Part shown: in pieces, positions 10,003 through 62,990 of the stretch | How positions within the stretch are numbered: position 1 is the stretch's first letter | How the letters are laid out: each line of letters begins with the position of its first letter | NCBI RefSeq assembly: GCF_036867135.1 | Contig: NZ_JBAJIJ010000002.1 | Location: forward strand, 124,001 to 188,000 | Direction of reading: 5' to 3' | DNA from: Aeromicrobium sp. Sec7.5 | GTDB lineage: Bacteria > Actinomycetota > Actinomycetes > Propionibacteriales > Nocardioidaceae | DNA length: 64,000 nucleotides | The notes under the pieces: model-generated | Told to the model about the DNA's origin: nothing | The model's database searches: none | The model's input: the letters and a program-made list of their open reading frames with translations, nothing else | Made by a program: the position numbers and the translations under genes

Positions 10003-10089
10003 CCGACCACGGGCCGAGCGAAGCGAGGCGGGCGCCCGGGCGAAGCCCGGCCGCGACGAAGTCGCGGGAGCGAGCGAAGCGAGCGCGCC
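10003..10089. repeat. Multi-hairpin element, family D copy 1 (nuoI-nuoJ gap)
   Basis: Four consecutive short hairpins capped by GAA between C and G: about 10013-10029; CCGGGC-GAA-GCCCGG at 10036-10050; CGCGAC-GAA-GTCGCG at 10052-10066; and about 10070-10084. The element directly abuts the nuoI stop codon (10090) and ends before the nuoJ ribosome binding site. In the mRNA sense the caps read C-UUC-G. Related copies lie at 43.4 and 62.9 kb. Confidence 0.75.
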
Positions 10090-10650
10090 TCATTCGCCCG
10101 CCTCCACGATCGGGAGCTGCTGGCCGCGGTAGTAGTCCTTGTGGTCGTCGCTGATCAGCATCTCGTGCGGCGGCTCGGTCATGCCGGGCAGCAGGGGCGC
10201 GAGCAGGTCGGACTTCTCGTAGATCAGCGCCTCGCGGTTGTCGTCGGCCAGCTCGTACTCGTTGGTCATCGTGAGCGCGCGGGTCGGGCAGGCCTCGATG
10301 CAGAGCCCGCACAGGATGCAGCGCAGGTAGTTGATCTGGTAGACGCGGCCGTACCGCTCGCCCGGGCTGAACCGGCCGGAGGCGTCCGGGCTGCCGTCGG
10401 GCAGGACGTCGACGTTCGACGCGCCCTCGACGTAGATCGCGTCGGCCGGGCAGGCCCAGGCGCACAGCTCGCAGCCGATGCACTTCTCGAGCCCGTCGGG
10501 CCACCGGTTGAGCTGGTGACGTCCGTGGAAACGCGGGGCCGTCGGAACCTTCTCGAAGGGGTACTGCTCCGTGACGACCTTCTTGAACATCGTCCGGAAC
10601 GTGACGCCGAACCCGGCGACCGGGTCCCACAGGTTGCCCTTGATGCTCAT
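10090..10650 (-). CDS. nuoI: NADH-quinone oxidoreductase subunit I (8Fe ferredoxin)
   Basis: A 186-residue peripheral-arm subunit that carries clusters N6a and N6b between NuoG and NuoB. The two CxxCxxCxxxCP motifs are at C57, C60, C63, C67 ([12 protein letters not shown]) and C111, C114, C117, C121 ([12 protein letters not shown]). The ATG at 10650 is chosen over an in-frame ATG 30 codons upstream because GGGAGGAGG precedes it at correct spacing and the protein then starts [10 protein letters not shown], as in relatives. NuoH lies 79 bases upstream. Confidence 0.96.
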
Positions 10651-10729
10651 CGTGCCTCCTCCCAGGAAAAGCGACGGTAGGTCGGAGCCACGATGACAAG
10701 ACCTCGATGGTTCGCTCGCTGCCGCTCGC

Positions 10730-11956
10730 TCATCGGGCACTCTCCTTCTCGGAGTCGTCGAAGGGCAGGGGCACGGGGTAGCCCTCGTGGGCCGATCCGG
10801 TGGCCTGCTCGGGGCGCTCGGGCGTGGGCTTCTCGCGACGCAGGGCGATGACCGCGATCAGCAGCAGCGCCGCGACGACACCCGCCCAGTTCACGACCGC
10901 CTCGTCGATCGAGCCCTCGTTCTGCAGCTTGCGGAGCACGATGACCACGAAGATCCAGCCCAGCGAGACCGGGATCAGGATCTTCCACCCGAACGCCATG
11001 AACTGGTCGTAGCGCATGCGCGGCAGGGTGCCGCGCAGCCAGATGAAGCCGAAGATGAAGAACAACGTCTTGCCGAGGAACCAGAGCACGGGCCAGTAGC
11101 CCTCGTTGGCGCCCTCCCAGACCTGGGCGATGCCGAACGGCGCCCGCCACCCGCCGAGGAACAGGGTCGTGGCCAGGGCGGAGACCGTGACCATGTTGAT
11201 GTACTCGGCCAGGAAGAACAGCGCGAACTTCAGCGAGCTGTACTCGGTGTGGAAGCCACCGACGAGCTCACCCTCGGCCTCCGGCAGGTCGAACGGCGCG
11301 CGGTTGGTCTCGCCGACCATGGAGATCAGGTAGACCACGAACGACGGCAGCAGCGGCAGGAAGTACCAGAGGTCGGTCTGCGCCGCGACGATCTCGGAGG
11401 TCGACATCGAGCCGGCGTAGAGGAACACCGTGACGAAGCTGAGGCCCATCGCGACCTCGTAGCTGATGACCTGGGCGCTGGAGCGCAGGCCACCGAGCAG
11501 CGCGTAGGTCGAGCCGGACGACCAGCCCGCGAGCACGATGCCGTACACGCCGATCGACGTGACGGCCAGGACGTACAGCACCGCGACCGGCATGTCGGTG
11601 AGCTGCAGCGGCGTCACGGTGTCGGTGAACGGGATCCGGACCTCGGGACCGAACGGGATCACCGACCAGGCGAGGAAGGCCGGGATCGTCGCGAGGATCG
11701 GTGCCAGGACGTAGACGAACTTGTCGGCCGCCTTGACGACGATGTCTTCCTTGAGGGCCAGCTTCACCCCGTCGGCGAGGCTCTGCAGCAGGCCGAACGG
11801 ACCGTGCACGTTGGGGCCGACGCGGTGCTGCATGCGGGCCACGACCCGACGCTCGAGCCAGATGTTGAACAGCGTGTAGACCACGAGGATCACGAAGATC
11901 AGCGTCGCCTTCAGCGCGACGACCCAGAACGGTTCCTGCCCGAAGATCTCACTCAT
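10730..11956 (-). CDS. nuoH: NADH-quinone oxidoreductase subunit H
   Basis: A 408-residue membrane subunit at the quinone-binding junction of complex I, with eight core helices. Signatures include [15 protein letters not shown] in the first cytoplasmic loop, [12 protein letters not shown], and [24 protein letters not shown] in the loop that lines the quinone chamber. A hydrophilic tail of about 40 residues follows the last helix. It starts 186 bases after nuoG across a repeat-filled gap, so it is not translationally coupled to nuoG. Confidence 0.97.
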
Positions 11957-11982
11957 GGGCGTTCACCCCAGTCCGGACGACC

Positions 11983-12125
11983 GCTGGTTGAGGTGCGAGG
12001 GCGCCCAGCGCCCGAGCCTCGAAACCTCGGTCGGCTGAGGTACCCCTTTCGAGGCTCCTCGTTCCGGGTCCTGAGGTGCGAGGAGCGCCAGCGACGAGCC
12101 TCGAAGGGCGTCGCACCTCAAGGGT
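11983..12125. repeat. Family C hairpin repeats (nuoG-nuoH gap)
   Basis: Two full copies with arms GAGGTGCGAG and GAGCCTCGAA lie at 11990-12023 and 12073-12105, plus partial inverted arms around 12048-12062 and 12111-12120. The middles differ (GGCGCCCAGCGCC against GAGCGCCAGCGAC), yet the first is itself self-complementary. They fill most of the 186-base gap after the nuoG stop. Confidence 0.7.
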
Positions 12126-12142
12126 CGGACGGTTGCCGCCGC

Positions 12143-14551
12143 TCATGCGTCATCTCCCGAGGTCGCGGTGGTGACGCTGCCGTGGCCGAGGCCGAGCTCG
12201 CGCAGGTTGACCCCGTTGTTGCCCGGCACCCAGACCACCCCGTCGGGCAGGTCGTCGACCACGGCCGGGAAGACGGCCGAGCCGCCGAGCCGGACCGTGC
12301 CGCCGTCGGTGACGCCGACTGACGACCACGTCGCCGCGCTCGCGCGCGCCACGGCTGGCCGAGCGGTCGCGGAGTACTCGGCCTGTCCGTCCTGGCCTCG
12401 ACCGTCGTCGATCAGCTGACGCCACGCCGACACCACGACGTGCCCGGCGGGCGGACGGGTCTCGGCGGTCGGCGCGGCCGACGGCCCACCGGCCCGGGTG
12501 CCGTCCCAGTGGCCGACCGAGTCGTGGTCGGCCAGGGCGTCGGCGGTCGTGCGGAACCCGATCGGTCGCTCCATCTCCTCGGCGATGCCGGCGAGAACGC
12601 GGGTGTCGGTGACGGAACCGGGCTCGTGCAGCGCGGTGTCGAACGGTCGGCGGCGACCCTCCCAGGTCACGAAGGTGCCGGACTTCTCGACCGGCGGGGC
12701 CACCGGGAGCACGACGTCGGCGAGCTCGGTGACCTCGCTGCGCCGGACCTCGAGACTGATGACCACCTGGGCCGCCGCGAGCGCCGCGCGGGCTCGCGCC
12801 GGGTCGGGCAGGTCGGCGACCTCGACGCCGCCGACCACGAGACCCAGCAGGGCGTGGTCGGCCGCGTCGTCGACGATGCTCACGACGTCGCGGCCGCGGA
12901 TGCCGGGGATGACCGCCACGCCCCAGGCAGCGGCGAGGTCGGCTCGGGCCTCGGCCACGGCGACGGGTCGGGCGCCAGGGAGCAGGTTGGGCAGCAGTCC
13001 GGCCTCCACGGCGGCCCGGTCACCCGCGCGCCGCGGGACCCAGGCGAGCCGGGCGCCCTCGAGCGCGGCCAGGGCCGACAGCAGTCCGGGGACCAGAGCC
13101 GCGCGTTCGCCGACCAGGACGACGTCACCCGATCCGAGATCGAGTCCGGCGAGCGAGGCCACCTCCTGCCCGGGCACGGTGGGGACCAGGGTCGCGGCGA
13201 GCTTCTCGCTGCCGCGGCTGCGGTGGCTGGCGATCGTGACGACCTGGGGGCCGCCGGCCAGCACCGCCTTGCGGAGGCGCAGGAAGATCGTGGCGGCCTC
13301 GTCCTCGGGCTCGAGCGCCACGAGCACGACTCGACGGGCTCGGGCGAGCTCGGCGTAGCTGACTCCCAGCCCGGAGCCGGCCACCTGGGCCGCCAGGAAG
13401 TCGGCTTCCTCGGGTCCGACGGCGCGGGAGCGGAAGTCGACGTCGTTGGTGCCCAGCGCGACCCGCGCGAAGGCCGACCACCCGTGGGCGTCCTCGAGCG
13501 TCAGGCGGCCACCGGGCAGCACGCCGACCGATCCTCGCACCGACTCGAGGAGCCGACCCGCCACGGCGAGGGCGCCGGGCCACGACATCGGCTGCAGCTC
13601 ACCGTGCTCGTCGCGGACCAGCGGGGTGCGCAGGCGGTCGTCCTGCCGCGTCGAGGTGAACGCGAAACGGTCCTTGTCGCTGATCCACTCCTCGTTGACC
13701 TCCGGATCGTCGCCGGCCAGGCGGCGCATGACCGCGCCACGTCGGTGGTCGACGCGGATGGCGGCACCGCAGGCGTCGTGCTCGGCGACCGAGGGCACCG
13801 AGACGAGGTCGAACGGGCGGGAACGGAACCGGTAGTCGGCGCTCGTGAGCGCCCCGACGGGGCAGATCTGGATCGTGTTGCCGGAGAAGTAGGAGTGGAA
13901 CGGTGCGCCCTCGGCGCCGTCGGACGACGGTCCGATGCCCACCTGCTGCTGGGCGCCACGCTCGACCAGCGCGATGAACGGGTCACCAGCCACCTGGTCG
14001 GAGAAGCGCGTGCACCGCGCGCACAGCACGCAACGCTCACGGTCGAGCAGCACCTGGGCCGAGACCGGCACGGGCTTGGCGAAGGTGCGCTTCGTCTCGT
14101 GGAACCGGGACTCGCCCCGGCCGTGGGTCATGGCCTGGTTCTGCAGCGGGCACTCGCCGCCCTTGTCGCAGACGGGGCAGTCGAGCGGGTGGTTGACCAG
14201 CAGGAACTCCATGTTTCCGCGCTGCGCCGTCGCAGCGACCTCCGACGTGAGGTGCGTGCGCACGACCATGCCGGGCGCCGCCTCGATCGTGCACGAGGCC
14301 TGCGGCTTCGGGAAGCCTCGACCGTTGCCCGCGTCGGGGATGTCGACGAGGCACTGGCGGCACGCGCCGACGGGCTCGAGCAGCGGGTGGTCGCAGAAGC
14401 GCGGGATCTCGATGCCGACGACCTCGGCCGCGCGGATCACGAGGGTGCCCTTCGGGACGCTGACGCTGACGTCGTCGATCGTGAGCGTCACGAGCTCGAC
14501 CGGCGCCTGGGTGTCCCCCGCTCCTGATGTGCTCTGGGCTTCGAGGGTCAT
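12143..14551 (-). CDS. nuoG: NADH-quinone oxidoreductase subunit G
   Basis: The 802-residue, iron-sulfur-rich largest peripheral subunit. The N-terminal 2Fe-2S domain has cysteines in RFCDHPLLEPVGACRQCLVD. The HxxxCxxCxxxxxC ligands of N5 are in HPLDCPVCDKGGEC, and those of N4 in CVLCARC plus the later QICPVG. The remainder is a degenerate molybdopterin oxidoreductase domain. Where some relatives have extra N7 cysteines, here only one remains (EHDACGAAIRVDHRRG), so N7 is probably absent. It overlaps nuoF by 4 bases. Confidence 0.95.
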   Translation of the reverse strand: MTLEAQSTSGAGDTQAPVELVTLTIDDVSVSVPKGTLVIRAAEVVGIEIPRFCDHPLLEPVGACRQCLVDIPDAGNGRGFPKPQASCTIEAAPGMVVRTHLTSEVAATAQRGNMEFLLVNHPLDCPVCDKGGECPLQNQAMTHGRGESRFHETKRTFAKPVPVSAQVLLDRERCVLCARCTRFSDQVAGDPFIALVERGAQQQVGIGPSSDGAEGAPFHSYFSGNTIQICPVGALTSADYRFRSRPFDLVSVPSVAEHDACGAAIRVDHRRGAVMRRLAGDDPEVNEEWISDKDRFAFTSTRQDDRLRTPLVRDEHGELQPMSWPGALAVAGRLLESVRGSVGVLPGGRLTLEDAHGWSAFARVALGTNDVDFRSRAVGPEEADFLAAQVAGSGLGVSYAELARARRVVLVALEPEDEAATIFLRLRKAVLAGGPQVVTIASHRSRGSEKLAATLVPTVPGQEVASLAGLDLGSGDVVLVGERAALVPGLLSALAALEGARLAWVPRRAGDRAAVEAGLLPNLLPGARPVAVAEARADLAAAWGVAVIPGIRGRDVVSIVDDAADHALLGLVVGGVEVADLPDPARARAALAAAQVVISLEVRRSEVTELADVVLPVAPPVEKSGTFVTWEGRRRPFDTALHEPGSVTDTRVLAGIAEEMERPIGFRTTADALADHDSVGHWDGTRAGGPSAAPTAETRPPAGHVVVSAWRQLIDDGRGQDGQAEYSATARPAVARASAATWSSVGVTDGGTVRLGGSAVFPAVVDDLPDGVVWVPGNNGVNLRELGLGHGSVTTATSGDDA

Positions 14552-15873
14552 GACGTCAGCTCCGCAGCGAAGAGGGTCGAGGCGATCGGCGGGAAGAGCT
14601 CGCTCGACGGGGTGTGCATCCCGGCCTCGAACTCGTCACGGAAGTGCTGGATCGCCGAGGTGATGGGGCTCGTGGCACCGTCGCCGAGCGCGCAGAACGA
14701 GCGACCCAGGATGTTGCCGCACAGCTCCTGCAGCAGCTCGATGTCGCCCGTGCGCCCCTCACCGGAGTCGAGCCGGCGCAGCACCTGCACGAGCCACCAC
14801 GTGCCCTCGCGGCACGGCGTGCACTTGCCGCACGACTCGTGCTTGTAGAACTCGGTCCAGCGCAGGACGCAGCGCACGACCGAGGTGGTCTGGTCGAAGA
14901 CCTGCAGGGCCTTGGTGCCAAGCATCGAGCCGGCGGCGCCGACGCCCTCGTAGTCGAGCGGCACGTCGAGGTGCTCGGCCGTGAGGATCGGCGTGGAGGA
15001 CCCGCCCGGGGTCCAGAACTTCAGCTCCGCGTCGGTGCCGTCAGGCTTGGCCCGCATGCCGCCACCGAGCTCGAGCAGCTCGCGCAGCGTGATGCCGAGC
15101 GGCGCCTCGTACTGACCGGGACGCTTCACGTGCCCCGAGAGCGAGTAGAGCGTGAACCCCTTGCTCTTCTCGGTGCCCATGGAGCCGAACCACGAGATGC
15201 CGTGCTCGACGATGGCCGGCACCGACGCGATCGACTCGACGTTGTTGATGACCGTGGGCGAGGCGTACAGACCCGCGACCGCCGGGAACGGCGGGCGGAG
15301 GCGGGGCTGACCGCGGCGCCCCTCGAGCGAGTCGAGGAGCGCGGTCTCCTCGCCGCAGATGTAGGCGCCGGCCCCCGCGTGGACGACGACATCGAGGTTC
15401 ATGCCCGAGCCGCCGATGTCGGTACCGAGGTGGCCGGCCGCGTAGGCCTCGCGCACGGCCGCCCGCAGGCGCCGCACGACGTGCAGCACCTCCCCGCGGA
15501 CGTAGATGAACGCCTGCTCCGCCTGGATGGCCCGCGACGCGATGATGACGCCCTCCACGAGCGTGTGCGGGCTCGCCATCATGAGCGGGATGTCCTTGCA
15601 GGTGCCCGGCTCCGACTCGTCGGCGTTGACCACGAGGTACGTGGGGTTGGGGTTGTCCTTCGGGATGAACGACCACTTCATGCCCGTCGGGAAGCCGGCG
15701 CCACCGCGGCCCCGCAGGCCGGACTCCTTGACGAGCTCAATCAGGTCGGCCGGGGTCATCGTGAGGGCCTTGGCGAGCGCGCCGTAGCCGCCGCGGTCGG
15801 TGTAGGCGTCGAGCGTCCACGCGCGGTCGTCGGCCCAGCCGGCGCTCAGCACGGGTGTCAGCGTGTCGGTCAT
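14548..15873 (-). CDS. nuoF: NADH-quinone oxidoreductase subunit F (NADH/FMN binding)
   Basis: A 441-residue subunit that binds NADH, FMN and the 4Fe-4S cluster N3. GRGGAGFPTGMKWSF is the FMN/NADH glycine-rich loop, and ESCGKCTPCREG with the downstream SFCALGD cysteine supplies the N3 ligands. It forms the electron-input module with NuoE and NuoG. It overlaps nuoE and nuoG by 4 bases each. Confidence 0.97.
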   Translation of the reverse strand: MTDTLTPVLSAGWADDRAWTLDAYTDRGGYGALAKALTMTPADLIELVKESGLRGRGGAGFPTGMKWSFIPKDNPNPTYLVVNADESEPGTCKDIPLMMASPHTLVEGVIIASRAIQAEQAFIYVRGEVLHVVRRLRAAVREAYAAGHLGTDIGGSGMNLDVVVHAGAGAYICGEETALLDSLEGRRGQPRLRPPFPAVAGLYASPTVINNVESIASVPAIVEHGISWFGSMGTEKSKGFTLYSLSGHVKRPGQYEAPLGITLRELLELGGGMRAKPDGTDAELKFWTPGGSSTPILTAEHLDVPLDYEGVGAAGSMLGTKALQVFDQTTSVVRCVLRWTEFYKHESCGKCTPCREGTWWLVQVLRRLDSGEGRTGDIELLQELCGNILGRSFCALGDGATSPITSAIQHFRDEFEAGMHTPSSELFPPIASTLFAAELTS

Positions 15874-16637
15874 GTCGCGCCACCTTCCACGTCGGCCTCG
15901 GACTCCTCGGCGACGGTCTCCGACTCAGCACGCGAGGTGTCGGCCTCGGCTGCCGCCTCAGTCTTGCTCTCGTCGGGACTGGCGGCGCCGGCCTCGCTGC
16001 TGGGGGCCGCCCAGCCGCGCTCGTTCGCGATCTCGAGGCCGGCGAGCGAGGCGCCGCTGGCGGCCGGGCCCTCGTCGACGCGACCGTCCTCGAAGCCGGC
16101 GAGCACGCGCTCGGCCTCGCGCCACGACGTGATCGTGGCGCCTCGCGGGGAGGCCACGTCCTCGCCCGCCCGCAGCCGGTCGACCAGGTCGACCGCGCTG
16201 CTCGGGTCCTGGTCGTCGAAGAACTCCCAGTTGACCATCACGACCGGAGCGAAGTCGCAGGCCGCGTTGCACTCGACCCGCTCGAGCGTGACCTGGCCGT
16301 CGGCCGTGGTCTCGTCGTGCCCCACCCCGAGGTGCTCGGACACGCGCTCGAAGATCGCGTCGCCGCCCATCACGGCGCACAGCGTGTTGGTGCAGACGCC
16401 GACGTGGTGCGTGCCCATCGGGCGACGCTTGTACATCGTGTAGAACGTCGCGACGCCCGACACCTCGGCCGCGCTCAGGCCCAGCAGCTCGGCGCACAGC
16501 TCGATGCCCTCGGTCGACACGTGGCCCTCGACCGACTGCACGAGGTGCAGCATCGGCAGCAGCGCCGACCGCGCCTGCGGATACCGCCCCATCAACCCAC
16601 GGAGCTCGTCAATCGTCTCCTCGTCAAACGGGCTCAA
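15870..16637 (-). CDS. nuoE: NADH-quinone oxidoreductase subunit E (2Fe-2S)
   Basis: A 255-residue thioredoxin-fold subunit with cluster N1a. The ligand pattern is CTNTLC followed by CNAAC. Residues after about 165 form an acidic, Ala/Glu/Ser-rich tail of low complexity, as in other long actinobacterial NuoE. ATGA overlaps exist with nuoD upstream and nuoF downstream. Confidence 0.95.
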
Positions 16638-17968: not shown

Positions 17969-17990
17969 GCGTGGGCTCCTTCGCACTGAC

Positions 17991-18090: not shown

Positions 18091-18119
18091 GGAGCGGTGA
18101 TGGATGCCGACTGCACTCA

Positions 18120-19892: not shown

Positions 19893-20429
19893 GTGCCCGC
19901 CGCTCGTCGCATCCTCGTCGCGGGCCGACCCGGCGCTGGGAAGTCGACGCTCGCCCGGCAGGTCGCCGCCGCAGCCGATGTGCCGTACACCGAGCTCGAC
20001 GCGCTGCACCACGGTCCGGACTGGACGCCGCGGCCGCAGTTCGACGACGACGTGCTGGCGCTCGCCACGTCCGAGGCCTGGGTCACGGAGTGGCAGTACC
20101 CGCAGGCTCGTCCCGTGCTGGCGGCCCACGCGGACCTGCTGGTGTGGCTCGACCTGCCGGTGCGGGTCACGATGACGCGACTGACCCGGCGCACCGTGGG
20201 CCGGGTGCGGAACCGCACCGAGCTCTGGGCCGGCAACGTCGAGCCGCCCCTGCGCACGGTCTTCACCGAGCCGAACCACATCGTCCGCTGGGCCTGGCGC
20301 ACGCGCCACGACTACCGCACGCTCGTGCCCGAGGCACGCGCCGCCCACCCCGACCTGGCCCTGGTCCACCTCAGGAGCCAGGCCGACACCGAGGCGTACC
20401 TCCAGGCGCTCCGCGCCCAAGCCCCCTAG
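19893..20429 (+). CDS. P-loop NTPase, adenylate-kinase-like (topology modulation protein type)
   Basis: A 178-residue protein with a Walker A motif GRPGAGKS at residues 11-18 and the FlaR/topology-modulation-protein style continuation YTELDALHHGPDWTPR. LLVWLDLPVRVTMTRLTRRT is the Walker B and lid-like region. Members are small nucleoside or nucleotide kinase-like proteins without assigned substrates. The start is GTG 19893, with AGGATGG upstream. It is divergent from nuo and convergent with menG; its TAG stop is followed after 3 bases by the first 22-bp repeat array. Confidence 0.8.
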   Translation: MPAARRILVAGRPGAGKSTLARQVAAAADVPYTELDALHHGPDWTPRPQFDDDVLALATSEAWVTEWQYPQARPVLAAHADLLVWLDLPVRVTMTRLTRRTVGRVRNRTELWAGNVEPPLRTVFTEPNHIVRWAWRTRHDYRTLVPEARAAHPDLALVHLRSQADTEAYLQALRAQAP

Positions 20430-20432
20430 GTA

Positions 20433-20498
20433 CCGCTCGCGAGAGAGTTTGTTGGTGCCGACGAGAGACTTTGTTGGTGGCCAGGAGAGACTTTGTTG
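20433..20498. repeat. 22-bp periodic repeat array, family A copy 1
   Basis: Three units begin at 20441, 20463 and 20485, an exact 22-base period. The core is GAGAGA(C/G)TTTGTTGGTG, with the last unit truncated to 14 bases. The array opens with CCGCTCGCGAG 3 bases after the TAG stop of the P-loop gene and ends at the menG stop. CTCGCGAG is itself a palindrome. Related arrays lie at 22.5 and 36.2 kb. Confidence 0.8.
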
Positions 20499-20502
20499 CG
20501 AC

Positions 20503-21198
20503 TCAGCCGGGCTTGACCGAGTGGTGCAGCGCCACGATGCCGCCGGAGAGGTTGTGCCACTCGACCCGCCCCCAGCCCGCCTCGACGAACCGCAGCGCGA
20601 GGCCCTTCTGGTCGGGCCAGGCGCGGATCGACTCGGCGAGGTAGACGTACGAGTCGGGGTTCGACGACACCGCACGCGCCACCGGCGGCAGCGTCCGCAT
20701 CAGGTAGTTGACGTAGAGGCCACGGAACGGTGCCCAGGTCGGCGTGCTGAACTCGCACACCACGACGCGCCCGCCGGGGCGGGTGACGCGCAGCAGCTCG
20801 CGCAGGCCCTCGACCGGGTCGTGGATGTTGCGCAGGCCGAACGAGATCGTGACGGCGTCGAAGGAGTCGTCGGCGAAGGGCAGGCGCATCCCGTCGCCAG
20901 CCGTGAACGGCAGGTCGGGAAACTGCTGCTTGCCCACGCGCAGCATGCCGAGCGAGAAGTCGCAGGGCACCACGAGCGCCCCGGCGGCCGCGAAGGGCTC
21001 GCTGGAGGTCCCGGTGCCGGCCGCGAGGTCGAGGATGCGCTCCCCCGGCTGCGGGTCGACGAGGTCGACGACGGCTCGGCGCCAGCGACGGTCCTGCCCG
21101 AGCGAGAGGACGTCGTTCGTGAGGTCGTAGCGATCCGCGACCTGGTCGAACATGCTCGCGACCGCGCGGGGGTCCTTGTCCAATCCGGCTCGACTCAC
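20503..21198 (-). CDS. menG: Demethylmenaquinone methyltransferase
   Basis: A 231-residue class I SAM-dependent methyltransferase of the UbiE/MenG family that makes menaquinone from demethylmenaquinone in the last step of the pathway. The SAM loop DLAAGTGT is at residues 57-64, and [17 protein letters not shown] and [17 protein letters not shown] are family blocks. The start GTG 21198 ([10 protein letters not shown]) is chosen because it gives the normal N-terminus; the frame continues far upstream only as a shadow of menF. It is divergent from menF with 33 bases between starts. Confidence 0.93.
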
Positions 21199-22496: not shown

Positions 22497-22634
22497 CTCG
22501 CGAGGGGGCTTGGTGGTGCCGGCGAGAGCGTGGGCGCGTCGCGCCTCGAGGTCGTCCACCACGAAGCGCAACAAAGTCGCTCGTGACCACCAACAAAGTC
22601 GCTCCTGACCACCAACAAAGTCTCTCGCGAGCGG
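22497..22634. repeat. 22-bp periodic repeat array, family A copy 2
   Basis: A worn forward copy lies at 22497-22530 (CTCGCGAG, then GGCTTGGTGGTGCC). Inverted units lie at 22569-22582 (14-base partial), 22583-22604 and 22605-22626, again exactly 22 bases apart. The array closes with CTCGCGAGCGG (22624-22634), 4 bases before the SGNH hydrolase stop on the minus strand. Forward and inverted ends can pair through CTCGCGAG. Confidence 0.75.
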
Positions 22635-22638
22635 AACG

Positions 22639-23397
22639 TCAGGTGGGGGTGACGGGCGTGGGGAAGCGCGGGGCGAGGGTGTCGCCGGAGGACGTGCCGC
22701 GGAGGCGGCGGCCGATCCAGGGGCCGGCGTGCTCGCGGGCCCAGGCCACGTTGGCCGACCGGCGCTCGGCCGGTGACCGGGGCGGGGGCGGCGGCAGCAC
22801 CGGCGGCTGGAGGTCGTGGTCGACGCCGAGCGCGTCGAGCACCGCGATCGCCATGCGCTCGTGGCCGGCCCGCGACATGTGCATGCGATCGATGTCCCAG
22901 TAGCGGTCGTCGCGGTACTCGCGCAGCCGCCAGAAGTCGACGAGGGTCGCCCCGTGCCGCTCGGCGACCTCCCGCACGAGCTCGTTGTAGATCGCGAACC
23001 GGCCCCGCAGGAACGCGAAGACCGGCGCCTCGCCCGGGTCGTAGGCCGTGAACATCACGACGTGCGCCCGCTCCGACAGCCGCGCCACCGCGGTGTCGTA
23101 CTCCGCCACGAGGGCGTCGATGTCGATCCGCGGCCGCAGCACGTCGTTCGCACCGCCGTAGATCGAGACGAGGTCCGGCTCCAGCGCCAGCGCCGGGGCG
23201 ACCTGCTCGGCCAGGATCGGCCGCAGCTTGCGACCTCGGATCGCCAAGTTCGCGTAGGTCAGTGCGGGATCGCGCTGCGCGAGGGCGGCGGCACATCGGT
23301 CGGCCCATCCGTGAACCCCGTTGGGTCGGCCGGGATCGGCGTCGCCGACGCCTTCGGTGAAGGAGTCTCCGAGGGCGACGTAACGGCGGAATCGCAT
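22639..23397 (-). CDS. SGNH/GDSL hydrolase (first paralogue)
   Basis: A 252-residue SGNH-fold esterase or lipase. The nucleophile block is ALGDSFTEG (S12), the oxyanion block GGANDVL, and the catalytic DxxH is in WDIDRMHMSRAGH. There is no signal peptide, so it is probably cytoplasmic; the substrate is unknown. It is a tandem paralogue of the next gene and its first 139 bases overlap that gene's 3' end in another frame. TAGCCT lies 6 bases before its ATG, giving it its own leaderless promoter inside the upstream paralogue. Confidence 0.85.
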   Translation of the reverse strand: MRFRRYVALGDSFTEGVGDADPGRPNGVHGWADRCAAALAQRDPALTYANLAIRGRKLRPILAEQVAPALALEPDLVSIYGGANDVLRPRIDIDALVAEYDTAVARLSERAHVVMFTAYDPGEAPVFAFLRGRFAIYNELVREVAERHGATLVDFWRLREYRDDRYWDIDRMHMSRAGHERMAIAVLDALGVDHDLQPPVLPPPPPRSPAERRSANVAWAREHAGPWIGRRLRGTSSGDTLAPRFPTPVTPT

Positions 23398-36085: not shown

Positions 36086-36140
36086 GTCCTCGACCCTAGG
36101 CGAGCCGCACACCCCCGTCGTCCACCCGCAGGATGACGTC

Positions 36141-36261
36141 CCGCTCGCGAGAGAGTTTGTTGGTGGTCACGAGCGACTTTGTTGGTGGTCAGGAGAGATT
36201 TTGTTGGTCCGCGGCAGCAACAAAGTCTCTCCTGTGCACACACAAAGTCTCTCGCGAGCGG
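36141..36261. repeat. 22-bp periodic repeat array, family A copy 3 (inverted pair)
   Basis: Forward units start at 36149, 36171 and 36193 (22-base period). A short centre is followed by inverted units at 36218-36231 and 36232-36253. Both outer ends carry CTCGCGAG with CGG, so the ends can pair over about 17 bases. The right end is 3 bases from the menE stop codon (36265) and the left end lies near the histidine kinase start. Confidence 0.8.
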
Positions 36262-36264
36262 CAC

Positions 36265-43250: not shown

Positions 43251-43337
43251 GGGCCCGACGCTAGTGGCTCAGGACCCCGGTCCGCGTCCGCCGAAAGTCG
43301 GAGATCGGGGCTCCCCTCCCCGTCAGGTGCACGGGGT

Positions 43338-43480
43338 TTCGAGGCTCGCGCCGCAGGCGGCACTCACACCTCAACCACCGGTGGTGACCACGGGCCGAGC
43401 GAAGCGAGGCGGGCGCCCGGGCGCAGCCCGGCACCGGTGAGGAACGAACCGGTGGAGCGGCGACGAAGGAGCCGCGCGCC
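43338..43480. repeat. Composite repeat: family C copy joined to family D copy 2
   Basis: A family C unit (TTCGAGGCTC at 43338-43347, CTCACACCTC at 43363-43372) runs into the shared ACCACCGGTGGT palindrome and then a family D element. Family D here carries CCGGGC-GCA-GCCCGG, a CACCGGT/ACCGGTG hairpin and a GCGGC/GCCGC hairpin. It abuts the ccsB stop at 43481 with GCGCGCC, exactly as copy 1 abuts nuoI. Confidence 0.7.
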
Positions 43481-44425
43481 TCACTTGGCGTAGGAGTGCA
43501 GGCCCGGGACGAAGATGTTGACGCCGTAGTAGCTGAACAGGAACGTGGCGAAGCCGAGCAGCGCGATGATCGCAGCGCGGCGGCCCTTCCAGCCAGCGGT
43601 CGCGCGGGCGTGCAGGTAGCCGGCGTAGACGACCCACGTGACGAAGGCCCAGACCTCCTTGGGGTCCCAGCCCCAGTACCGGCCCCACGCGTAGTGCGCC
43701 CAGATCGGGCCGGCGATCAGTGCGCCGAAGGTCCAGAGCACGAAGCCGACCGCGTGCGTGCGGTACGCCAGGCGGTCCATCGCGGCGATCGTCGGCACGC
43801 GCCGCAGGATCGGCCCGACCGAACCGCGGTTCTCGGCCCGCTCCTTGAGCAGGTACAGCAGCGAGGCGGAGGCACCGACCAGGAACAGGGCACCGGCGAT
43901 CATGACGGCCGCGACGTGGATCACGAGCCAGTACGAGTGCAGCGCGGGCACCAGCGGACCGGCCGGGACGTACGCCGACCAGGCCAGGCCGAGGATCGCC
44001 AGGCCGAAGCCCGTGACGAGCGGCGCGATCCACTGCACCGAGGTGATGCGGACGAGCACGAGGTAGACGACCAGGGCGATCGAGACGCCCGTGAGGCCGA
44101 ACTCGTACATGTTGCCCCACGGGACCCGCTCGGACGCGAGCGCACGGGAGACGACACCGGCCACGAGCAGGCCGGTCGCGACGACCGTCAGCGCGATGCC
44201 GATGCGACTCAGGACCGCGCTGCGCGGGGGGACCTCGTCGTCGTCGGGCGTCGCGACGGCGACCGAGCCCTGGGCACCGGCACCGACCGTGGCGGCGACG
44301 GGCTCGACGGCCTCCTGGCGGACGAACAGCAGCTCGGCCAGGTGGGCGAGGAAGGCGAGCGCGAGCACGACGGTGCCCGACGCGACGGCGTAGTTCGAGA
44401 ACTCGGCGAAGTCGGCGAGGGTCAT
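43481..44425 (-). CDS. ccsB: Cytochrome c biogenesis protein CcsB (CcsA-type heme channel)
   Basis: A 314-residue integral membrane protein of the system II cytochrome c synthetase. The tryptophan-rich WWD-type segment is AHYAWGRYWGWDPKEVWAFVTW, with flanking conserved histidines (HSYWLVIHVAA and YRTHAVGF). With ResB it moves heme across the membrane and ligates it to apocytochromes. It overlaps the resB stop by 4 bases. It is the last gene of the hemL-side operon. Confidence 0.93.
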   Translation of the reverse strand: MTLADFAEFSNYAVASGTVVLALAFLAHLAELLFVRQEAVEPVAATVGAGAQGSVAVATPDDDEVPPRSAVLSRIGIALTVVATGLLVAGVVSRALASERVPWGNMYEFGLTGVSIALVVYLVLVRITSVQWIAPLVTGFGLAILGLAWSAYVPAGPLVPALHSYWLVIHVAAVMIAGALFLVGASASLLYLLKERAENRGSVGPILRRVPTIAAMDRLAYRTHAVGFVLWTFGALIAGPIWAHYAWGRYWGWDPKEVWAFVTWVVYAGYLHARATAGWKGRRAAIIALLGFATFLFSYYGVNIFVPGLHSYAK

Positions 44426-53702: not shown

Positions 53703-53709
53703 GGGATCG

Positions 53710-53972: not shown

Positions 53973-53985
53973 CTCGAACCTGTCG

Positions 53986-55617: not shown

Positions 55618-55675
55618 GTGGGTACTTCCTTCTGGTGCAGACGGGGTCTGCGGGTGGTCGGGTCGGATCGACCGA

Positions 55676-57962: not shown

Positions 57963-58008
57963 GGAACGCTCACCGCCGAGTCATCGGAGTCCAGATCACG
58001 GAAGAAGG

Positions 58009-58038
58009 GGTGCAGAATCGTCACAGTTCTCCTGCACC
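58009..58038. promoter_or_regulatory. Hairpin in the hemA leader
   Basis: GGTGCAG (58009-58015) is inverted as CTGCACC at 58032-58038 in the transcribed leader of hemA, 47 bases upstream of the GTG. Extra pairing inside the loop is possible. It could be an attenuator or a protein site; nothing identifies which. Confidence 0.35.
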
Positions 58039-58085
58039 GCGAACCTCGGGATTTCCCTGACGGGACAGGCCTGCGGCGCCCCCAC

Positions 58086-58132
58086 AGTCTACGATCGGTG
58101 CTCGTCGTTCACCAAATCGTCACGATGTGACG
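58086..58132 (-). promoter_or_regulatory. Candidate hemA promoter and adjacent inverted repeat
   Basis: On the minus strand TTGGTG (58110-58115) and TAGACT (58086-58091) are 18 bases apart and give a start about 115 bases before hemA. Immediately upstream, CGTCAC-GAT-GTGACG (58118-58132) is a perfect 15-base inverted repeat that touches the -35 region and lies 8 bases from the glutaredoxin stop. It could be an operator or a terminator remnant. Confidence 0.4.
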
Positions 58133-58140
58133 TCGCCGTG

Positions 58141-58422
58141 TCAGCCCGCGAGAGCTGCGCGGAGCCGCTGCGGGTCCACCCGCCAGAAGTCGTGCTGCCG
58201 CCCGTCGACGAACGTCACGGGCACCTCGTCGTTCCACTGCTCCGCGAGGGCGGGATCGGTGTCGACGTCCACCGTGGTCCACGTGTCGCCGGTCTCCTGG
58301 GTCACCGACTCGACCACAGCAGTGGCCACCTCGCACAGGTGACAGCCGTCACGCACCAGGAGCACCACGCGCGCCGAGCCCAGGACCTCGGACGAGGCGC
58401 CGGCGGACGGACCCGAGGTCAT
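58141..58422 (-). CDS. Glutaredoxin family protein
   Basis: A 93-residue thioredoxin-fold protein of the DUF836/glutaredoxin-like type with the CxxC redox pair at C27 and C30 (RDGCHLCEVA) and a cis-Pro block EVPVTFVDG. It is probably a cytoplasmic thiol reductant. ATG 58422 overlaps the acyl-CoA-ligase-like stop as ATGA. It lies upstream of hemA, where some actinobacteria also carry the redox regulator Rex; none is present here. Confidence 0.85.
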   Translation of the reverse strand: MTSGPSAGASSEVLGSARVVLLVRDGCHLCEVATAVVESVTQETGDTWTTVDVDTDPALAEQWNDEVPVTFVDGRQHDFWRVDPQRLRAALAG

Positions 58423-59984
58423 CGCAGCCCCAGGTCCGATCCCCGGGCGAGCGCCCGGAGCCGGCCCTTGGCGACCTTGCCCGTGGGCGAGTACGGGAGT
58501 CCCTGGACGATCTCGATCGTGGTGGGCTGCTTGAACCGCGCCAGCCGGGTGCGGCACGCGGCCGCCACTGCGGCCACCACCTCACCTTCGTCGGTGCCGG
58601 GCAGCGGCACGACGAACGCGAGCACCTGCTCGCCGGTCTCCTCGTGCGGCAGGCCCACCACGGCGACCTGGTCGACGCCCGGGGCCTCGGCGATGACGTC
58701 CTCGACCTCACGGGGGTAGACGTTGAAGCCGGACACGATCACGAGCTCGCGCAGCCGGTCGACGAGCGTGAGGTCACCGTCGTCGTCGAGCAGGCCCACG
58801 TCACCGGTGGGGTACCAGCCGTCCGCGTCCGGTCCGTCGCTGCCGTCGGGCCAGTAGCCCGTGAGCAGGTTGTCGCCCCGCACCCAGATCTCGGCGGGGT
58901 CGCCGGGGGACGCCTCACGCCCCGCGACGGTCTCGACGACGCGGACCTCGATGCCCGGCAGGACGGCGCCGACCGAGTACGGCTTCGGCGCACCGTCGGC
59001 GTCGCGGGAAGACCCGATCGTGACCGCCACGACCGGCGAGGCCTCGGTGAGGCCGTACCCCTGCTCGATGACGTGCCCCGACGAGTCGCGAAAGTCGCGG
59101 GCGAGGTCCGGATCCAGTGCCGAGGCGCCCGACACGACGACCCGGACCGAGGCCAGCTTCTCGCGCAGGTCGGTCCGTCCCGACCACGCGGCGACGACCG
59201 GCGGAGCCACGGCGAGGTAGGTCAGGCCCTCGCGGACGACGAGGTCGAGCAGGGCGTCGGGGTCGAAGCCGTCGACCAGGACGAGCGGCGCACCTTGGTG
59301 GACCGCCTGCCCCAGGACGCAGTTGAGGCCGTAGATGTGGAACATCGGCAGCAGGCCGAGGCATACGTCGTCGGCCGAGACGACGTCGAGCGTGGCGACC
59401 TGCTCGATGTTGGCGAGCAGGGCCCGGTGGGACAACATGACGCCGCGGGGGCGTCCGCTCGTGCCGGACGTGTAGAGGATGACCGCGAGCGCCTCGGGAT
59501 CGGCCGGCGCAGCCGGGGGCGACGGCACGGCGGCGTCCAGGAACGCCGTGAACGCGACCTCGCCGCCCTCGGGCGACGGACCGTCGACGACGACGGTGAG
59601 GTTCTCGAGGCCCGAGGCCGCCGCGCGGACCGCGTCGACGGCGGTCCCGTCGGCGAGGACGACCCGGGCTCCGGAGTCGGTGATCATGCGCTCGACCTCG
59701 GCGGGGGTCGAGCGCGGGTTGATGGGGACAGCGACCATGCCCCCACGCAGGATGGCGAAGTACGCGATGACCAGGTCGATGCGGTTGGCCATCACCAGCG
59801 CGACGCGGTGACCGGCCCGGAGCCCCCGGGCGCTGAGACCGCGGGCGACGGCGTCGGCCGCGTGGTCCAGCTCGGCCCAGGTGACGGCTCGACGTTCCTC
59901 GCGGGCCTCGACCAGGGCGGTGCCCTCCGGGTCACGGCGCGCGGCGACGGCGAGGATCTCGCTGACGTTCACGGTCACGGTCAC
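58419..59984 (-). CDS. AMP-dependent acyl-CoA synthetase/ligase
   Basis: A 521-residue ANL-superfamily enzyme. The P-loop is LYTSGTSGRPRGVMLSH, the A5 block GYGLTEASP, the A8 hinge GWYPTGDVGLLDDDGDLTLVDRLREL, and the A10 lysine PYSPTGKVAKGRL. It likely activates a carboxylic acid (fatty or aromatic) to the acyl-CoA; the substrate is not determinable. The start GTG 59984 is the first of three closely spaced GTG codons (VTVTVNVSEIL). It shares a transcript with the glutaredoxin. Confidence 0.87.
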   Translation of the reverse strand: MTVTVNVSEILAVAARRDPEGTALVEAREERRAVTWAELDHAADAVARGLSARGLRAGHRVALVMANRIDLVIAYFAILRGGMVAVPINPRSTPAEVERMITDSGARVVLADGTAVDAVRAAASGLENLTVVVDGPSPEGGEVAFTAFLDAAVPSPPAAPADPEALAVILYTSGTSGRPRGVMLSHRALLANIEQVATLDVVSADDVCLGLLPMFHIYGLNCVLGQAVHQGAPLVLVDGFDPDALLDLVVREGLTYLAVAPPVVAAWSGRTDLREKLASVRVVVSGASALDPDLARDFRDSSGHVIEQGYGLTEASPVVAVTIGSSRDADGAPKPYSVGAVLPGIEVRVVETVAGREASPGDPAEIWVRGDNLLTGYWPDGSDGPDADGWYPTGDVGLLDDDGDLTLVDRLRELVIVSGFNVYPREVEDVIAEAPGVDQVAVVGLPHEETGEQVLAFVVPLPGTDEGEVVAAVAAACRTRLARFKQPTTIEIVQGLPYSPTGKVAKGRLRALARGSDLGLR

Positions 59985-60052
59985 GCGGCAACTCTTCCAC
60001 ACCGCTCCCCCGGTTCGCCTCCGAACACCCGCCCGGGCCCCACGGCGCGCGG

Positions 60053-60058
60053 TAGCCT
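60053..60058 (+). promoter_or_regulatory. Leaderless -10 hexamer for the HAD phosphatase gene
   Basis: TAGCCT lies exactly 6 bases before the ATG at 60065, in the short divergent gap with the acyl-CoA ligase gene. Confidence 0.5.
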
Positions 60059-60064
60059 CACCGC

Positions 60065-60961
60065 ATGAGCCGCCCGCCGTCCGTCCCCCGGCCCGTGTCG
60101 CCGGCCGATCGGCGGCGCAACCTCAAGTCGCGATCAGTGCTGGCGGGCCAGGCCGCCGCAGCGGCGGCGGAGGTCGAGATCGCGCTCGCACCCGAGGCCG
60201 ACCCGCGGGCCGCCGCCTTCTTCGACGTCGACAACACCATCATGCAGGGCGCTTCGATCTTCCATCTCGCCCGTGGTCTCTACCGGCGCGACTTCTTCTC
60301 GGCCCGCGACCTCGCCGGCGCCGTGTGGCAGCAGGCCTACTTCCGGATCTCCGGCATCGAGGACCCAGAACACATCGCGAAGGCCCGCAGCTCGGCCCTG
60401 TCGTTCATCGCCGGGCACAGCGTGACCGAGCTCGAGGAGATCGGCGAGGAGATCTTCGACGAGCACATGGCGCACAAGATCTGGCCGGGCACCCGCGCGA
60501 TCGCGCAGGCCCACCTCGACCGCGGCCAACGGGTCTGGCTCGTCACGGCGGCACCGGTCGAGATCGCTCAGGTCATCGCCCGGCGGCTCGGCCTGACCGG
60601 GGCGCTGGGCACGGTCGCGGAGCACGTCGACGGCGTCTACACCGGCCAGCTGGTGGGCGAGATGCTGCACGGCGAGGGCAAGGCCGTCGCCGTGCGGGCC
60701 ATCGCGGAGCGCGAACGCCTCGACCTGTCGCGATGCTCGGCGTACTCCGACTCCAGCAACGACCTGCCGATGTTGTCACTCGTCGGACACCCGTGCGCGG
60801 TCAATCCCGACACGACCCTGCGCTCCCACGCACGGGCCAACGACTGGGAGATCCGCGACTACCGCACCGGTCGTCGCGTGGCGCTGGCCGGGGCCCGTAC
60901 GGCTGGCATGGCCGGGGCTGGAGTGGCGGCCTGGCAGGTCGCTCGCCGCCTGCGTCGCTGA
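60065..60961 (+). CDS. HAD-IB family hydrolase (SerB-like phosphatase)
   Basis: A 298-residue HAD phosphatase. The nucleophile and acid are D54 and D56 in AFFDVDNTIMQGAS; motif II is VTAAPVEIAQ and motif IV is YSDSSNDLPML. It matches the actinobacterial group related to phosphoserine phosphatases that sits beside BldN-type sigma genes. A C-terminal Ala/Gly-rich hydrophobic stretch (about 275-292) could be membrane-associated. Its own leaderless promoter is predicted. The substrate is unknown. Confidence 0.87.
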   Translation: MSRPPSVPRPVSPADRRRNLKSRSVLAGQAAAAAAEVEIALAPEADPRAAAFFDVDNTIMQGASIFHLARGLYRRDFFSARDLAGAVWQQAYFRISGIEDPEHIAKARSSALSFIAGHSVTELEEIGEEIFDEHMAHKIWPGTRAIAQAHLDRGQRVWLVTAAPVEIAQVIARRLGLTGALGTVAEHVDGVYTGQLVGEMLHGEGKAVAVRAIAERERLDLSRCSAYSDSSNDLPMLSLVGHPCAVNPDTTLRSHARANDWEIRDYRTGRRVALAGARTAGMAGAGVAAWQVARRLRR

Positions 60962-61038
60962 CTCCCTCCCGCCAATTTCTCGAAATCTCTGGGCGAACGG
61001 GCTCCCGGCGGATAGGCTCAGACTGATCTGGGAGGGTC

Positions 61039-61743
61039 ATGCGGGAGAATCTGGTAGGACTTCGCGGGGTGCTGGCCGTGGCCGGTGCTCACGTCGACGA
61101 CCGCGGTCTGCTCGCCGCCCTGGCCCACGTCGACTCCACGCCCAGCCCCGGTTCCGGCTCCGGCGGCAGTGACCCCGAGCCGCACCTGGACGCCGAGGGG
61201 CTGCGTCTGCGGGCCCTCGTGGATCTGGCAGTCGAGGGCGATGCCGAGGCGTTCGGCCAGCTCTACGACCACTACGTCGGCGGCATCTACCGCTTCGTCT
61301 ACTACCGGGTCGGCTCCGCGCAGCTCGCCGAGGACCTGACGAGCGAGACCTTCGTCCGCGGCCTCCGCGCGATCAGCCGTTTCAGCTGGCAGGGCAAGGA
61401 CTTCGGCGCGTGGCTCACCACGATCGCCCGCAACCTGATCACCGACCACTTCAAGTCCAGCCGCGCCCGACTCGAGATCGTGTCCGACTCCGTCCCGGAG
61501 ACGCGCTCGAGCCCGCCGACCCCCGAGGACGAGGTGCTGAACCTCGTCTCGAACGCGATGCTCCTCGAGGCGGTCAACGCGCTCCCGGAGGAGCAGCGCG
61601 ACTGCATCCTGATGCGCTTCATGCAGGGACTCTCGATCGCCCAGACCGCGGCGGCCCTCGGCCGGAGCGAAGGAGCCGTCAAGCAGCTCCAGCTGCGGGC
61701 GGTCCGACGACTCGCCAAGAACGTGACGGAGGACGTCCGATGA
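61039..61743 (+). CDS. ECF RNA polymerase sigma factor, BldN-like
   Basis: A 234-residue ECF sigma factor. After an unusual N-terminal extension of about 55 residues comes region 2 (LYDHYVGGIYRFVYYRVGSAQLAEDLTSETFVRGLRA) and region 4 (EEQRDCILMRFMQGLSIAQTAAALGRSEGAVKQLQLRAV). Order, extension and neighbours match sigma-BldN of Streptomyces, which is made with an N-terminal pro-sequence and drives development genes. It is followed by a membrane DUF5667 protein, the likely anti-sigma partner. TAGGCT at 61013 is a possible -10. Confidence 0.87.
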   Translation: MRENLVGLRGVLAVAGAHVDDRGLLAALAHVDSTPSPGSGSGGSDPEPHLDAEGLRLRALVDLAVEGDAEAFGQLYDHYVGGIYRFVYYRVGSAQLAEDLTSETFVRGLRAISRFSWQGKDFGAWLTTIARNLITDHFKSSRARLEIVSDSVPETRSSPPTPEDEVLNLVSNAMLLEAVNALPEEQRDCILMRFMQGLSIAQTAAALGRSEGAVKQLQLRAVRRLAKNVTEDVR

Positions 61744-61772
61744 CATTGACCCGTCCGTTCCGCGTCATGATT

Positions 61773-61801
61773 CGTAACTCCCGCCGTCTCATGGTCGTTC
61801 G
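61773..61801 (+). promoter_or_regulatory. BldN-class promoter before the DUF5667 gene
   Basis: CGTAAC (61773-61778) and CGTTCG (61796-61801) are 17 bases apart. The -35 is a full match to the remembered sigma-BldN consensus, and the -10 matches four of six. In Streptomyces the anti-sigma gene after bldN is itself a BldN target, so this would be a feedback loop. Confidence 0.5.
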
Positions 61802-61837
61802 GTACTGTGACCACCCGATGGCTTCAAGGCAGGAATC

Positions 61838-62881
61838 ATGACGAGCCACAAGCGCGAGGCTGATGCATTCGAGGCCGCTCTCCGCGGCGCGCCCGCTGAC
61901 GCGGCCGTCACCGAGCTGGTCCGGCACGCCGAGATCCTGTGCGCCCGCGCCGCCACCGTGGCCCCGTCCGACGACTTCCGCCTGGCCCTGCGCGAGCGCC
62001 TCATGGCCGAGGCCCCCGAGCTGCTGACCGCCCACCCCCGTCCGGCCGCCACGGCCGTGGCGGCGCCGCGCACGAGCGGCCTCCGCCGCCGCGTCGCCCG
62101 ACTCAGCGCCGCCGCGCTCGTCGCGGTCGGTGGCGTCGGCATCGTCGCCTCCAGCGCGCAGGCCGTCCCGGGCGACATGCTCTACGGCGTCAAGCGCAGT
62201 GTCGAGTCGGTCGAGCTCGCCCTGCACCGGACCGACGAGGCACGCGGCACGTTCCAGCTCGAGCAGGCGCGCGAGCGCCTCGCCGAGGCCGAGCACCTGG
62301 CCGACGAGGGCGACCTCGAACGTTCCGCCACGGCCCTGGCTGACTTCCGCAACCAGGCCGACGCCGGCACGGCCGACCTGTTCACGGACTACGAGGCCGA
62401 AGGCCAGAGCGCCTCGGTCGAGTCGGTCAACGACTTCGCTGTCGAGTCCGCCGGCACGTTGACCGATCTGGCCGAGCAGTTCCCGTCCACGTCCACGTCC
62501 ACGTCGTCGGACCCGGTCGAGCTCGCGATGAACACGGTGCGCGACATCGCCACGCAGGCCAGCGCGCTCTGCCTCGAGTGCGGCCCGATCACGCTGCCCG
62601 AGCTCCAGGCCATCGCCAGCCCCACGGACGGCACCACGACCTCCGCCGCACCCAGCGCTGGTCCCGCGCCGACGCCCACCAAGTCATCGCCCTCGGCCAC
62701 CGGCGCGCCGGCCCCCACGCCCTCCAAGACCCCCCTGCTCACGCAGCCGACCACCCCGGCCCCCTCGTCGACGCCGTCCCCTGCGCCTCAGGTCCCGATC
62801 GTCACCCCGCTCGTCGATAGCCTGCTGGGTGAGGAAGGCCTGGTGCCGTCGCTCCTCGGCGGGTTGCTGGGTCAGAAGTAG
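61838..62881 (+). CDS. DUF5667 membrane protein, presumed anti-sigma factor
   Basis: A 347-residue single-pass membrane protein. The N-terminal 80 residues are cytoplasmic and helical and a helix lies at about 87-107 (LSAAALVAVGGVGIVASSAQA). The DUF5667 segment PGDMLYGVKRSVESVELALH follows, then a coiled region rich in Glu and Arg. The C-terminal 120 residues are Thr/Pro/Ser-rich and extracytoplasmic. Position after a BldN-like sigma gene and the topology match RsbN-like anti-sigma factors. A short TCCACG repeat encodes Ser-Thr near residue 220. AGGAAT precedes the ATG. Confidence 0.75.
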   Translation: MTSHKREADAFEAALRGAPADAAVTELVRHAEILCARAATVAPSDDFRLALRERLMAEAPELLTAHPRPAATAVAAPRTSGLRRRVARLSAAALVAVGGVGIVASSAQAVPGDMLYGVKRSVESVELALHRTDEARGTFQLEQARERLAEAEHLADEGDLERSATALADFRNQADAGTADLFTDYEAEGQSASVESVNDFAVESAGTLTDLAEQFPSTSTSTSSDPVELAMNTVRDIATQASALCLECGPITLPELQAIASPTDGTTTSAAPSAGPAPTPTKSSPSATGAPAPTPSKTPLLTQPTTPAPSSTPSPAPQVPIVTPLVDSLLGEEGLVPSLLGGLLGQK

Positions 62882-62990
62882 AGCGCGCGACTCGTACCTC
62901 GTCGCATCACCGGCTCGTTCCTCGCCGGTGCCGGACTTCGTCCGGGCGCTTGCCTCGCCTTCGGCTCGGCCCATGGTCACCACGGGTGGC
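62882..62990. repeat. Multi-hairpin element, family D copy 3
   Basis: In the opposite orientation to copies 1 and 2, it starts directly at the stop of the DUF5667 gene with AGCGCGC. Hairpins include ACCGGC/GCCGGT and CCGGAC-TTC-GTCCGG (mRNA sense), then GCC-TTCGGC and the shared ATGGTCACCAC end. Between it and the acyltransferase stop, CAGCCGT-AGCC-ACGGCTG (63020-63037) is a small extra hairpin. The rest of the 209-base gap holds nothing recognisable. Confidence 0.65.

Follow-up and report, generated by a model that had tools for sequence, protein, structure and literature searches.

About half of the sampled genomes of the genus Aeromicrobium carry a short non-coding repeat that folds as a cloverleaf followed by a further hairpin; roughly every second copy starts immediately past a stop codon, with no base between. 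The stretch of Aeromicrobium sp. Sec7.5 DNA analysed here (the window: 64,000 nucleotides, positions 124,001 to 188,000 of the forward strand of contig NZ_JBAJIJ010000002.1, assembly GCF_036867135.1; coordinates below are those of the window) contains three copies of this element. Family models identify their host genes as nuoI (NF004537), ccsB (TIGR03144) and a DUF5667 gene, and the neighbour downstream of nuoI as nuoJ (Oxidored_q3). These genes end at 10090 (minus strand), 43481 (minus) and 62881 (plus), and the adjacency to their stop codons that the initial annotation had noticed is exact: all three copies start at the first base after the stop.

10003..10089, minus strand: copy 1, flush with the nuoI stop, within the nuoI-nuoJ junction; match to covariance model R2 at 10007-10089, expectation value (E) 1.2e-7
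10090..10092, minus strand: nuoI stop codon TGA, immediately 5' of copy 1
43386..43480, minus strand: copy 2, flush with the ccsB stop; R2 match at 43388-43480, E 7.9e-14
43481..43483, minus strand: ccsB stop codon TGA, immediately 5' of copy 2
62879..62881, plus strand: stop codon TAG of the DUF5667 gene, immediately 5' of copy 3
62882..62980, plus strand: copy 3, the family model's best match; R2 match at 62882-62976, E 6.1e-16

The covariance model sets these three copies apart from the rest of the window, where the next-best match has E 0.38; copy 1, an arm variant, is the lowest-scoring of the three. The GCGCGC that had been placed beside the stop is present at each junction but is offset from it by one base: TGA-G-GCGCGC in copies 1 and 2, TAG-A-GCGCGC in copy 3.

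Fold and covariation

Alignment of 14 full copies establishes the plan of the element: an outer stem (GGCGC/GCGCC) encloses three arms and is followed by one unpaired base, a fourth hairpin (GCCTCGC-TTC-GCTCGGC) and then CCRTGG, where R is a purine. The length is about 87-105 nucleotides (nt), and the models have 95 and 94 positions. The parts of copy 3, assigned from DNA folding and family pair counts, are as follows.

62882..62886, plus strand: 5' half of the outer stem, AGCGC, partner GCGCT at 62946-62950
62887..62905, plus strand: arm 1, GCGAC-TC-G-TAC-C-TC-GTCGC
62908..62930, plus strand: arm 2, CACCGGC-TC-G-TTC-C-TC-GCCGGTG
62931..62945, plus strand: arm 3, CCGGAC-TTC-GTCCGG
62952..62970, plus strand: hairpin 4, GCC-TC-GCC-TTC-GGC-TC-GGC, outside the cloverleaf
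62971..62980, plus strand: tail CCATGGTCAC, in which CCRTGG is conserved; the element's outer boundary is not fixed

The short hairpins that had been described as a chain are real, but they are the arms of one closed cloverleaf plus the fourth hairpin. The C-UUC-G caps attributed to many of them account for some loops, whereas arms 1 and 2 mostly read stem-TC-N-TNC-N-TC-stem; the common distal end holds for hairpin 4 plus CCRTGG, while beyond these the copies continue with TCACC, TCGG, ATCC or other letters. Host bases contribute to the outer stem in a few copies (for example, GGCTGA with CAGCC and GTGAC with GTCAC).

Folded as DNA, the three window copies and one further locus (L010) give the cloverleaf on either strand, and in all four the bottom strand, the complement of the mRNA, reaches the lower minimum energy. 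The corresponding z-scores relative to shuffled sequences (mRNA/bottom strand) are -2.30/-1.84, -3.03/-3.04, -1.82/-1.58 and -0.24/-0.58, and extend from about -0.2 for copy 1 to -3.0 for copy 3. Single-sequence RNA folding gives z values of -0.05, 0.07 and -1.86 for copies 1, 2 and 3; its optimum is the cloverleaf in copies 2 and 3 and a different structure in copy 1.

Members of the family elsewhere in the same genome were first located by DNA searches. The covariance model places about 24-25 copies there (24 at E <=0.01) and a further 84 in 12 congeneric genomes, for a set of 108. A later-fetched set from ten genomes, which is part of the matches found across the genus, supplies 55 usable copies of 56 (one was dropped because its flank was too short); it includes G054, a sister of the Sec7.5 genome, and is thus not fully independent of the first. 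In all, 25 of 49 genomes of the genus, Sec7.5 included, are carriers. No copy was found in 36 other genera sampled in the order, with 17 candidates scored per genome, so that weak relatives could escape. Copy 3 has no plasmid or phage match in distant-mode searches of either collection, and an origin from such elements was set aside; Rfam likewise yields nothing for the window or, at E values of 1 or less, for six loci, and a known RNA family was set aside as well. No report of the repeat stands among the papers that literature searches listed.

The covariation is overwhelming. Among the 14 copies from the Sec7.5 genome, 13 of 31 pairs have changed on both sides, compared with 3.9 in shuffles. 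When 103 matches (from 100 of the 108 loci) are aligned to the model, 97.3% of cells are paired, in an alignment that, like that of the later rows, was fitted to the structure; 29 of the 31 pairs have changed on both sides, and the both-sided changes occupy 338 cells, against 68 in shuffles and at most 33 with slid structures. The 55 later rows, which lay outside the building of model R2, have 1571 Watson-Crick cells out of 1619. The change of CCGGGC/GCCCGG in copy 1 to CCGGAC/GTCCGG in copy 3, with pairing kept, is thus one real instance of a family-wide pattern.

Comparison of orthologous copies used 43 of 44 listed pairs, among which genomes are shared, so that the pairs are not independent; a first comparison left aside copies longer than 112 nt, and a later one left aside copies longer than 115 nt, those lacking a readable upstream peptide, and 9 of the 56 later loci. 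These pairs contain 140 compensated stem pairs, 58 one-sided breaks and 7 two-sided breaks. Two of the closest show single uncompensated changes alone (three in L165/L385, one in L177/L344), and more distant ones show compensated changes, a succession that suits mutation followed by compensation.

Parts of the element also occur in other company. Five loci (L051-L055; G000:C2:507187-507926 and others) have a different cloverleaf-like body (GAGCCGGCGCG...CGGCTC), repeated at one place about every 218 nt, together with hairpin 4 and the GTGG tail; since these last are shared, the parts look modular. A hairpin repeat of another family, type C (TTGAGGTGTGAG...CTCGAAACC), lies directly past the tail of copy 2 (about 43335-43385), and a hairpin like it is found inside arm 2 of L039, L166, L378 and L391. 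At 20408-20520, 22566-22641 and 36116-36264 the window also holds arrays, in either orientation, of a unit of 22 bp that contains ACTTTGTTG and in which GTGGTCAC occurs too.

Placement and turnover

By a simple coding-frame test, 48 of 108 copies have a coding stop exactly at the element boundary, and 64 have one no more than 8 nt away; the later-fetched copies repeat this result (27 and 41 of 55). Where genes are called on both sides, 44 of 62 copies are exactly flush, and uniform placement in the spacer would yield 5.75. The right end has no such preference: its distance to the next gene call shows no peak and ranges from overlap to more than 1000 nt. The type C hairpins serve as a control: 11 of their 26 matches have an upstream stop less than 200 nt away, none has one less than 9 nt away, and none is ever flush. 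Because covariation across many copies and the excess beside stop codons both exceed chance, the proposal of the initial annotation that selection acts on a folded RNA or DNA stands.

The element follows T-R-N. A purine occupies position -2 in 106 of 108 copies of the first set and 53 of 55 later ones, a T position -3 in 83 and 43, respectively, and the last base is free; of 58 stop copies, 28 have G at -4. The sites that are not stops are mostly TGC, TGG, TAC, TGT or AGC, and some of them lie within other repeats (CTTGAGGTGC). Beside three non-stop copies (L058, L069, L070) stands a motif that recurs, CATCCGGGTTG, with the form CCGGGTTG in L023; it may mark a promoter region. TAG is enriched among the adjacent stops (33/64, compared with 68/221 in a background that includes operon-internal stops; p 0.003). 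At most of the compared sites among those listed, the host's stop keeps the same place as in relatives (at the exception, L029, two of three relatives end one codon later), and replacement of the stop by the element is rejected on account of its ancestral position there. In eight single-contig genomes, with the origin taken at dnaA and the terminus assumed opposite, 40 elements are co-directional with replication and 11 head-on; the elements are oriented as their host genes are, and no separate replication-strand rule is claimed.

The occupied sites vary between sister species, and the gene end itself is mostly unchanged. The left flanks of 18 copies of the Sec7.5 genome, together with those of ccsB and nuoI, were located in the sisters G054, G002 and G004: a copy is present at the site or close to it in 8 of 53 matching loci, the other 45 have no match at E up to 0.1, and for 13 of the 20 copies none of the three holds a counterpart. 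The nuoI site carries a copy in Sec7.5 and G054; in most of 30 loci the nuoI stop overlaps the nuoJ start (GTGA or ATGA). The ccsB site is empty in the closest relatives (G002, G054, G004) and occupied in G020, G021, G048, G043 and G013. At the leuS locus, G002 retains what appear to be the two ends of a copy. Some copies behind the same gene are no closer to each other than random ones, which indicates that independent arrivals or exchange of arms also occur. This element and another repeat family are found nested inside each other. One G062 locus (L370, 701-978) has three copies in tandem behind one gene, and at the nuoI/nuoJ junction of G014 (L275) there is an insertion of the other family, type C, with a 22-nt direct duplication of the gene boundary.

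The folding strand

Which strand folds is a question on which the pairs that are not Watson-Crick have some bearing. The first set (3030 cells: 2920 Watson-Crick) has 28 G.U cells in the mRNA sense, 43 A.C and 39 other mismatches; the later rows have 7 G.U, 27 A.C and 14 others. An A.C cell of the mRNA sense is a wobble of the opposite strand, and the excess of bottom-strand over mRNA wobbles in the later rows is significant (p 0.0008). The G.U share is 0.9% in the first set and 0.4% in the later rows, against 6.8% in tRNAs (10 G.U and no A.C among 147 cells of seven tRNAs in the fetched loci, some of other genera). Wobbles are thus rare on both strands, which fits DNA more than RNA.

The conserved unpaired bases are more specific. 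Arms 1 and 2 and hairpin 4 have TC opposite TC around a short inner stem, with TC at 517 of 618 half-loop positions in the 103 rows, and the loops of arms 1, 2 and 3 are TNC in at least 74, 83 and 97 rows, their letters mostly TTC, TCC, TGC or TAC. The mRNA equivalents are UC/UC mismatches and UNC loops with a lone base pair between them; read on the complementary strand, the same letters are tandem GA/GA mismatches and GNA triloops. The isolated pair between mismatch and loop itself covaries (columns 20-75: GC in 54 rows, CG in 33). In DNA minihairpins, of which d(GCGAAGC) is one, tandem G.A mismatches and GNA triloops are highly stable, and nearest-neighbour DNA parameters make the bottom strand the more stable one in 90 of the 98 copies evaluated (98 of the 103 rows). 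The conserved mismatches and loops suggest that it is the strand opposite the mRNA that folds.

Nature of the element

The explanation that best accommodates these facts, and which is given an even chance of being right, is a genus-specific mobile DNA element, akin to the repetitive extragenic palindromic (REP) sequences, that inserts behind T-purine-N, mostly a stop codon, and folds via the non-mRNA strand. The functional fold would be single-stranded DNA of the mRNA-complementary strand with its tandem G.A mismatches and GNA triloops; a nuclease or recombinase acting in trans would recognise this fold and join the element 3' of T-R-N, and the insertions immediately behind a stop codon would be those that are favoured or tolerated. 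It is doubtful that the insertion machinery finds stop codons themselves, for example via a DNA or RNA state left at the end of translation, although the fixed orientation and zero spacing would suit it. Since resident copies are kept paired, they probably also have a role at the gene end, or else are continually renewed.

Several observations weigh against such an element. Orthologous copies remain paired despite differing stems, with compensated changes outnumbering one-sided ones by 140 to 58, which is not expected of a dead mobile copy, and the T-R-N rule alone leaves the preference for an in-frame stop unexplained. As to the strand, the wobble excess is not significant in the first set (43 versus 28, p 0.10), two pairs hold 32 of the 70 wobble cells, so that the excess of A.C over G.U rests largely there, and the shuffle z-scores are alike for both strands, neither of which stands out in copy 1. 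As to mobility, absence from a sister may be loss rather than gain. There is no target-site duplication overall (64 copies, own versus swapped flanks, p 0.57), although some mobile elements produce none; an apparent duplication near genes ending in GVFRL* falls within the coding sequence that follows the element and appears coincidental. Finally, no Y1_Tnp match, the signature of REP-associated tyrosine transposases (RAYTs), was found in the 49 genomes of the genus, Sec7.5 included, in a search that matched 5 of 14 control genomes and was confined to this enzyme family.

Insertion sequences (IS) of the IS200/IS605 type have ends that fold as single-stranded DNA, with a short host target beside the fold. 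The element resembles them in its fold and its short adjacent target; it differs in that the 49 genomes lack a detectable Y1 transposase and in having no clear replication-strand rule beyond gene orientation. The target of mycobacterial interspersed repetitive units (MIRUs) is DTGA. MIRUs are described as mobile repeats whose insertion sites are start codons with a -4 overlap, and so stop/start junctions, an open reading frame within the MIRU coupling to the gene (PMC12548453). Like them, the element is short and looks mobile, and the nuoI copy breaks an overlap of just this kind; the relatives have no such overlap at ccsB. In contrast to what that account gives for MIRUs, it is a palindromic cloverleaf at the ends of many kinds of gene, often behind TAG. 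As precedents for insertion coupled to the reading frame, MIRUs come closest.

The likeness to REP elements is broader and its limits are clearer. GTAG/CGTC REPs (PMC3733652) and REPINs (PMC3116915) are likewise non-coding, repeated extragenic palindromes near gene 3' ends with alternative complementary stem letters. A GTAG REP is a single hairpin of 20-40 bp with an unpaired GTAG, often with GT pairing in its stem; the element is a multi-arm cloverleaf of 87-105 nt, its tag is T-R-N, wobbles are rare and it stands directly behind the host's own stop at zero spacing. It works like REP elements but departs from the GTAG REP/RAYT system in transposase, tag and size. That it is nevertheless a new family of the GTAG-REP kind, moved by a RAYT too diverged for the Y1_Tnp model, is distinctly unlikely. 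A palindrome beside an unpaired tag would be expected of such a family, and GTAG REP termini are said often to supply the TAG stop to flanking frames (PMC3733652), which the TAG enrichment here recalls; but the score for Y1_Tnp is 0 of 49 genomes against 5 of 14 controls, the tag is not GTAG, and at most compared sites the stop is ancestral, not supplied by the element.

An element of mRNA 3' ends, whether a transcription terminator or a barrier to 3' exonucleases, is unlikely, if slightly less so. Location behind stop codons in the transcribed direction, strong hairpins, the RNA cloverleaf of copies 2 and 3 and the convergent downstream frame of 33 among the 60 near-flush copies for which a downstream call exists all speak for it. 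However, TTTT is absent from 8 nt before to 25 nt past the element end in all 108 copies; copy 1 and its G054 ortholog lie within the nuo operon, between genes that overlap in many relatives; and for 19 of the 60 an open frame in the same direction (frames, not mapped starts) lies within 150 nt of the element end. For these reasons the element is not a strong terminator. The scarcity of G.U pairs relative to tRNAs, the weakness of the TC/TC and TNC motifs as mRNA and the lack of an Rfam match also count against an RNA function and weaken the mRNA half of the initial proposal. Template switching during replication, which PMC8794818 describes as a source of multi-base compensatory change in hairpins, could have perfected neutral palindromes and generated covariation without selection, and the rarity of wobble intermediates is in its favour. 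It is nonetheless very unlikely: copying from arm to arm would erase the TC/TC mismatches that are conserved, two of the closest ortholog pairs differ by single uncompensated changes, and the hypothesis is silent on stop codons. The most serious alternative, tentatively entertained, is a cis element at gene ends selected by the host as a supercoil or cruciform sink, a protein site or a brake on terminating ribosomes, with flush spacing a functional need and no consequence of how the element inserts. It accounts for zero spacing on the stop side alone and for orthologous copies that persist with compensated stems. E. coli REPs less than 16 nt from a stop are, moreover, reported to lower translation and stall ribosomes, and 446 of 4,072 lie within 15 nt of one (PMC12306157); these too are structured repeats by the stop, although the commonest spacing of the present element is exactly 0. 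By analogy, ribosome stalling is a possible effect of resident copies. Yet 24 of the 49 genomes have no copy found, 45 of the 53 matching sites in the three sisters are empty, and some copies sit at T-R-N sites that are not stops or inside other repeats.

If the mobile-element explanation is correct, a DNA element takes up a base-exact position relative to the reading frames of unrelated genes in about half of its copies, a proportion repeated in the later set. Either the insertion of DNA would then be steered to stop codons, or selection would prune insertions to a single position, and both are testable. There is also a more general lesson: where covariation turns up beside stop codons in a GC-rich genome, it does not have to reflect a functional mRNA, and in this family the conserved mismatches and loops favour the opposite strand.

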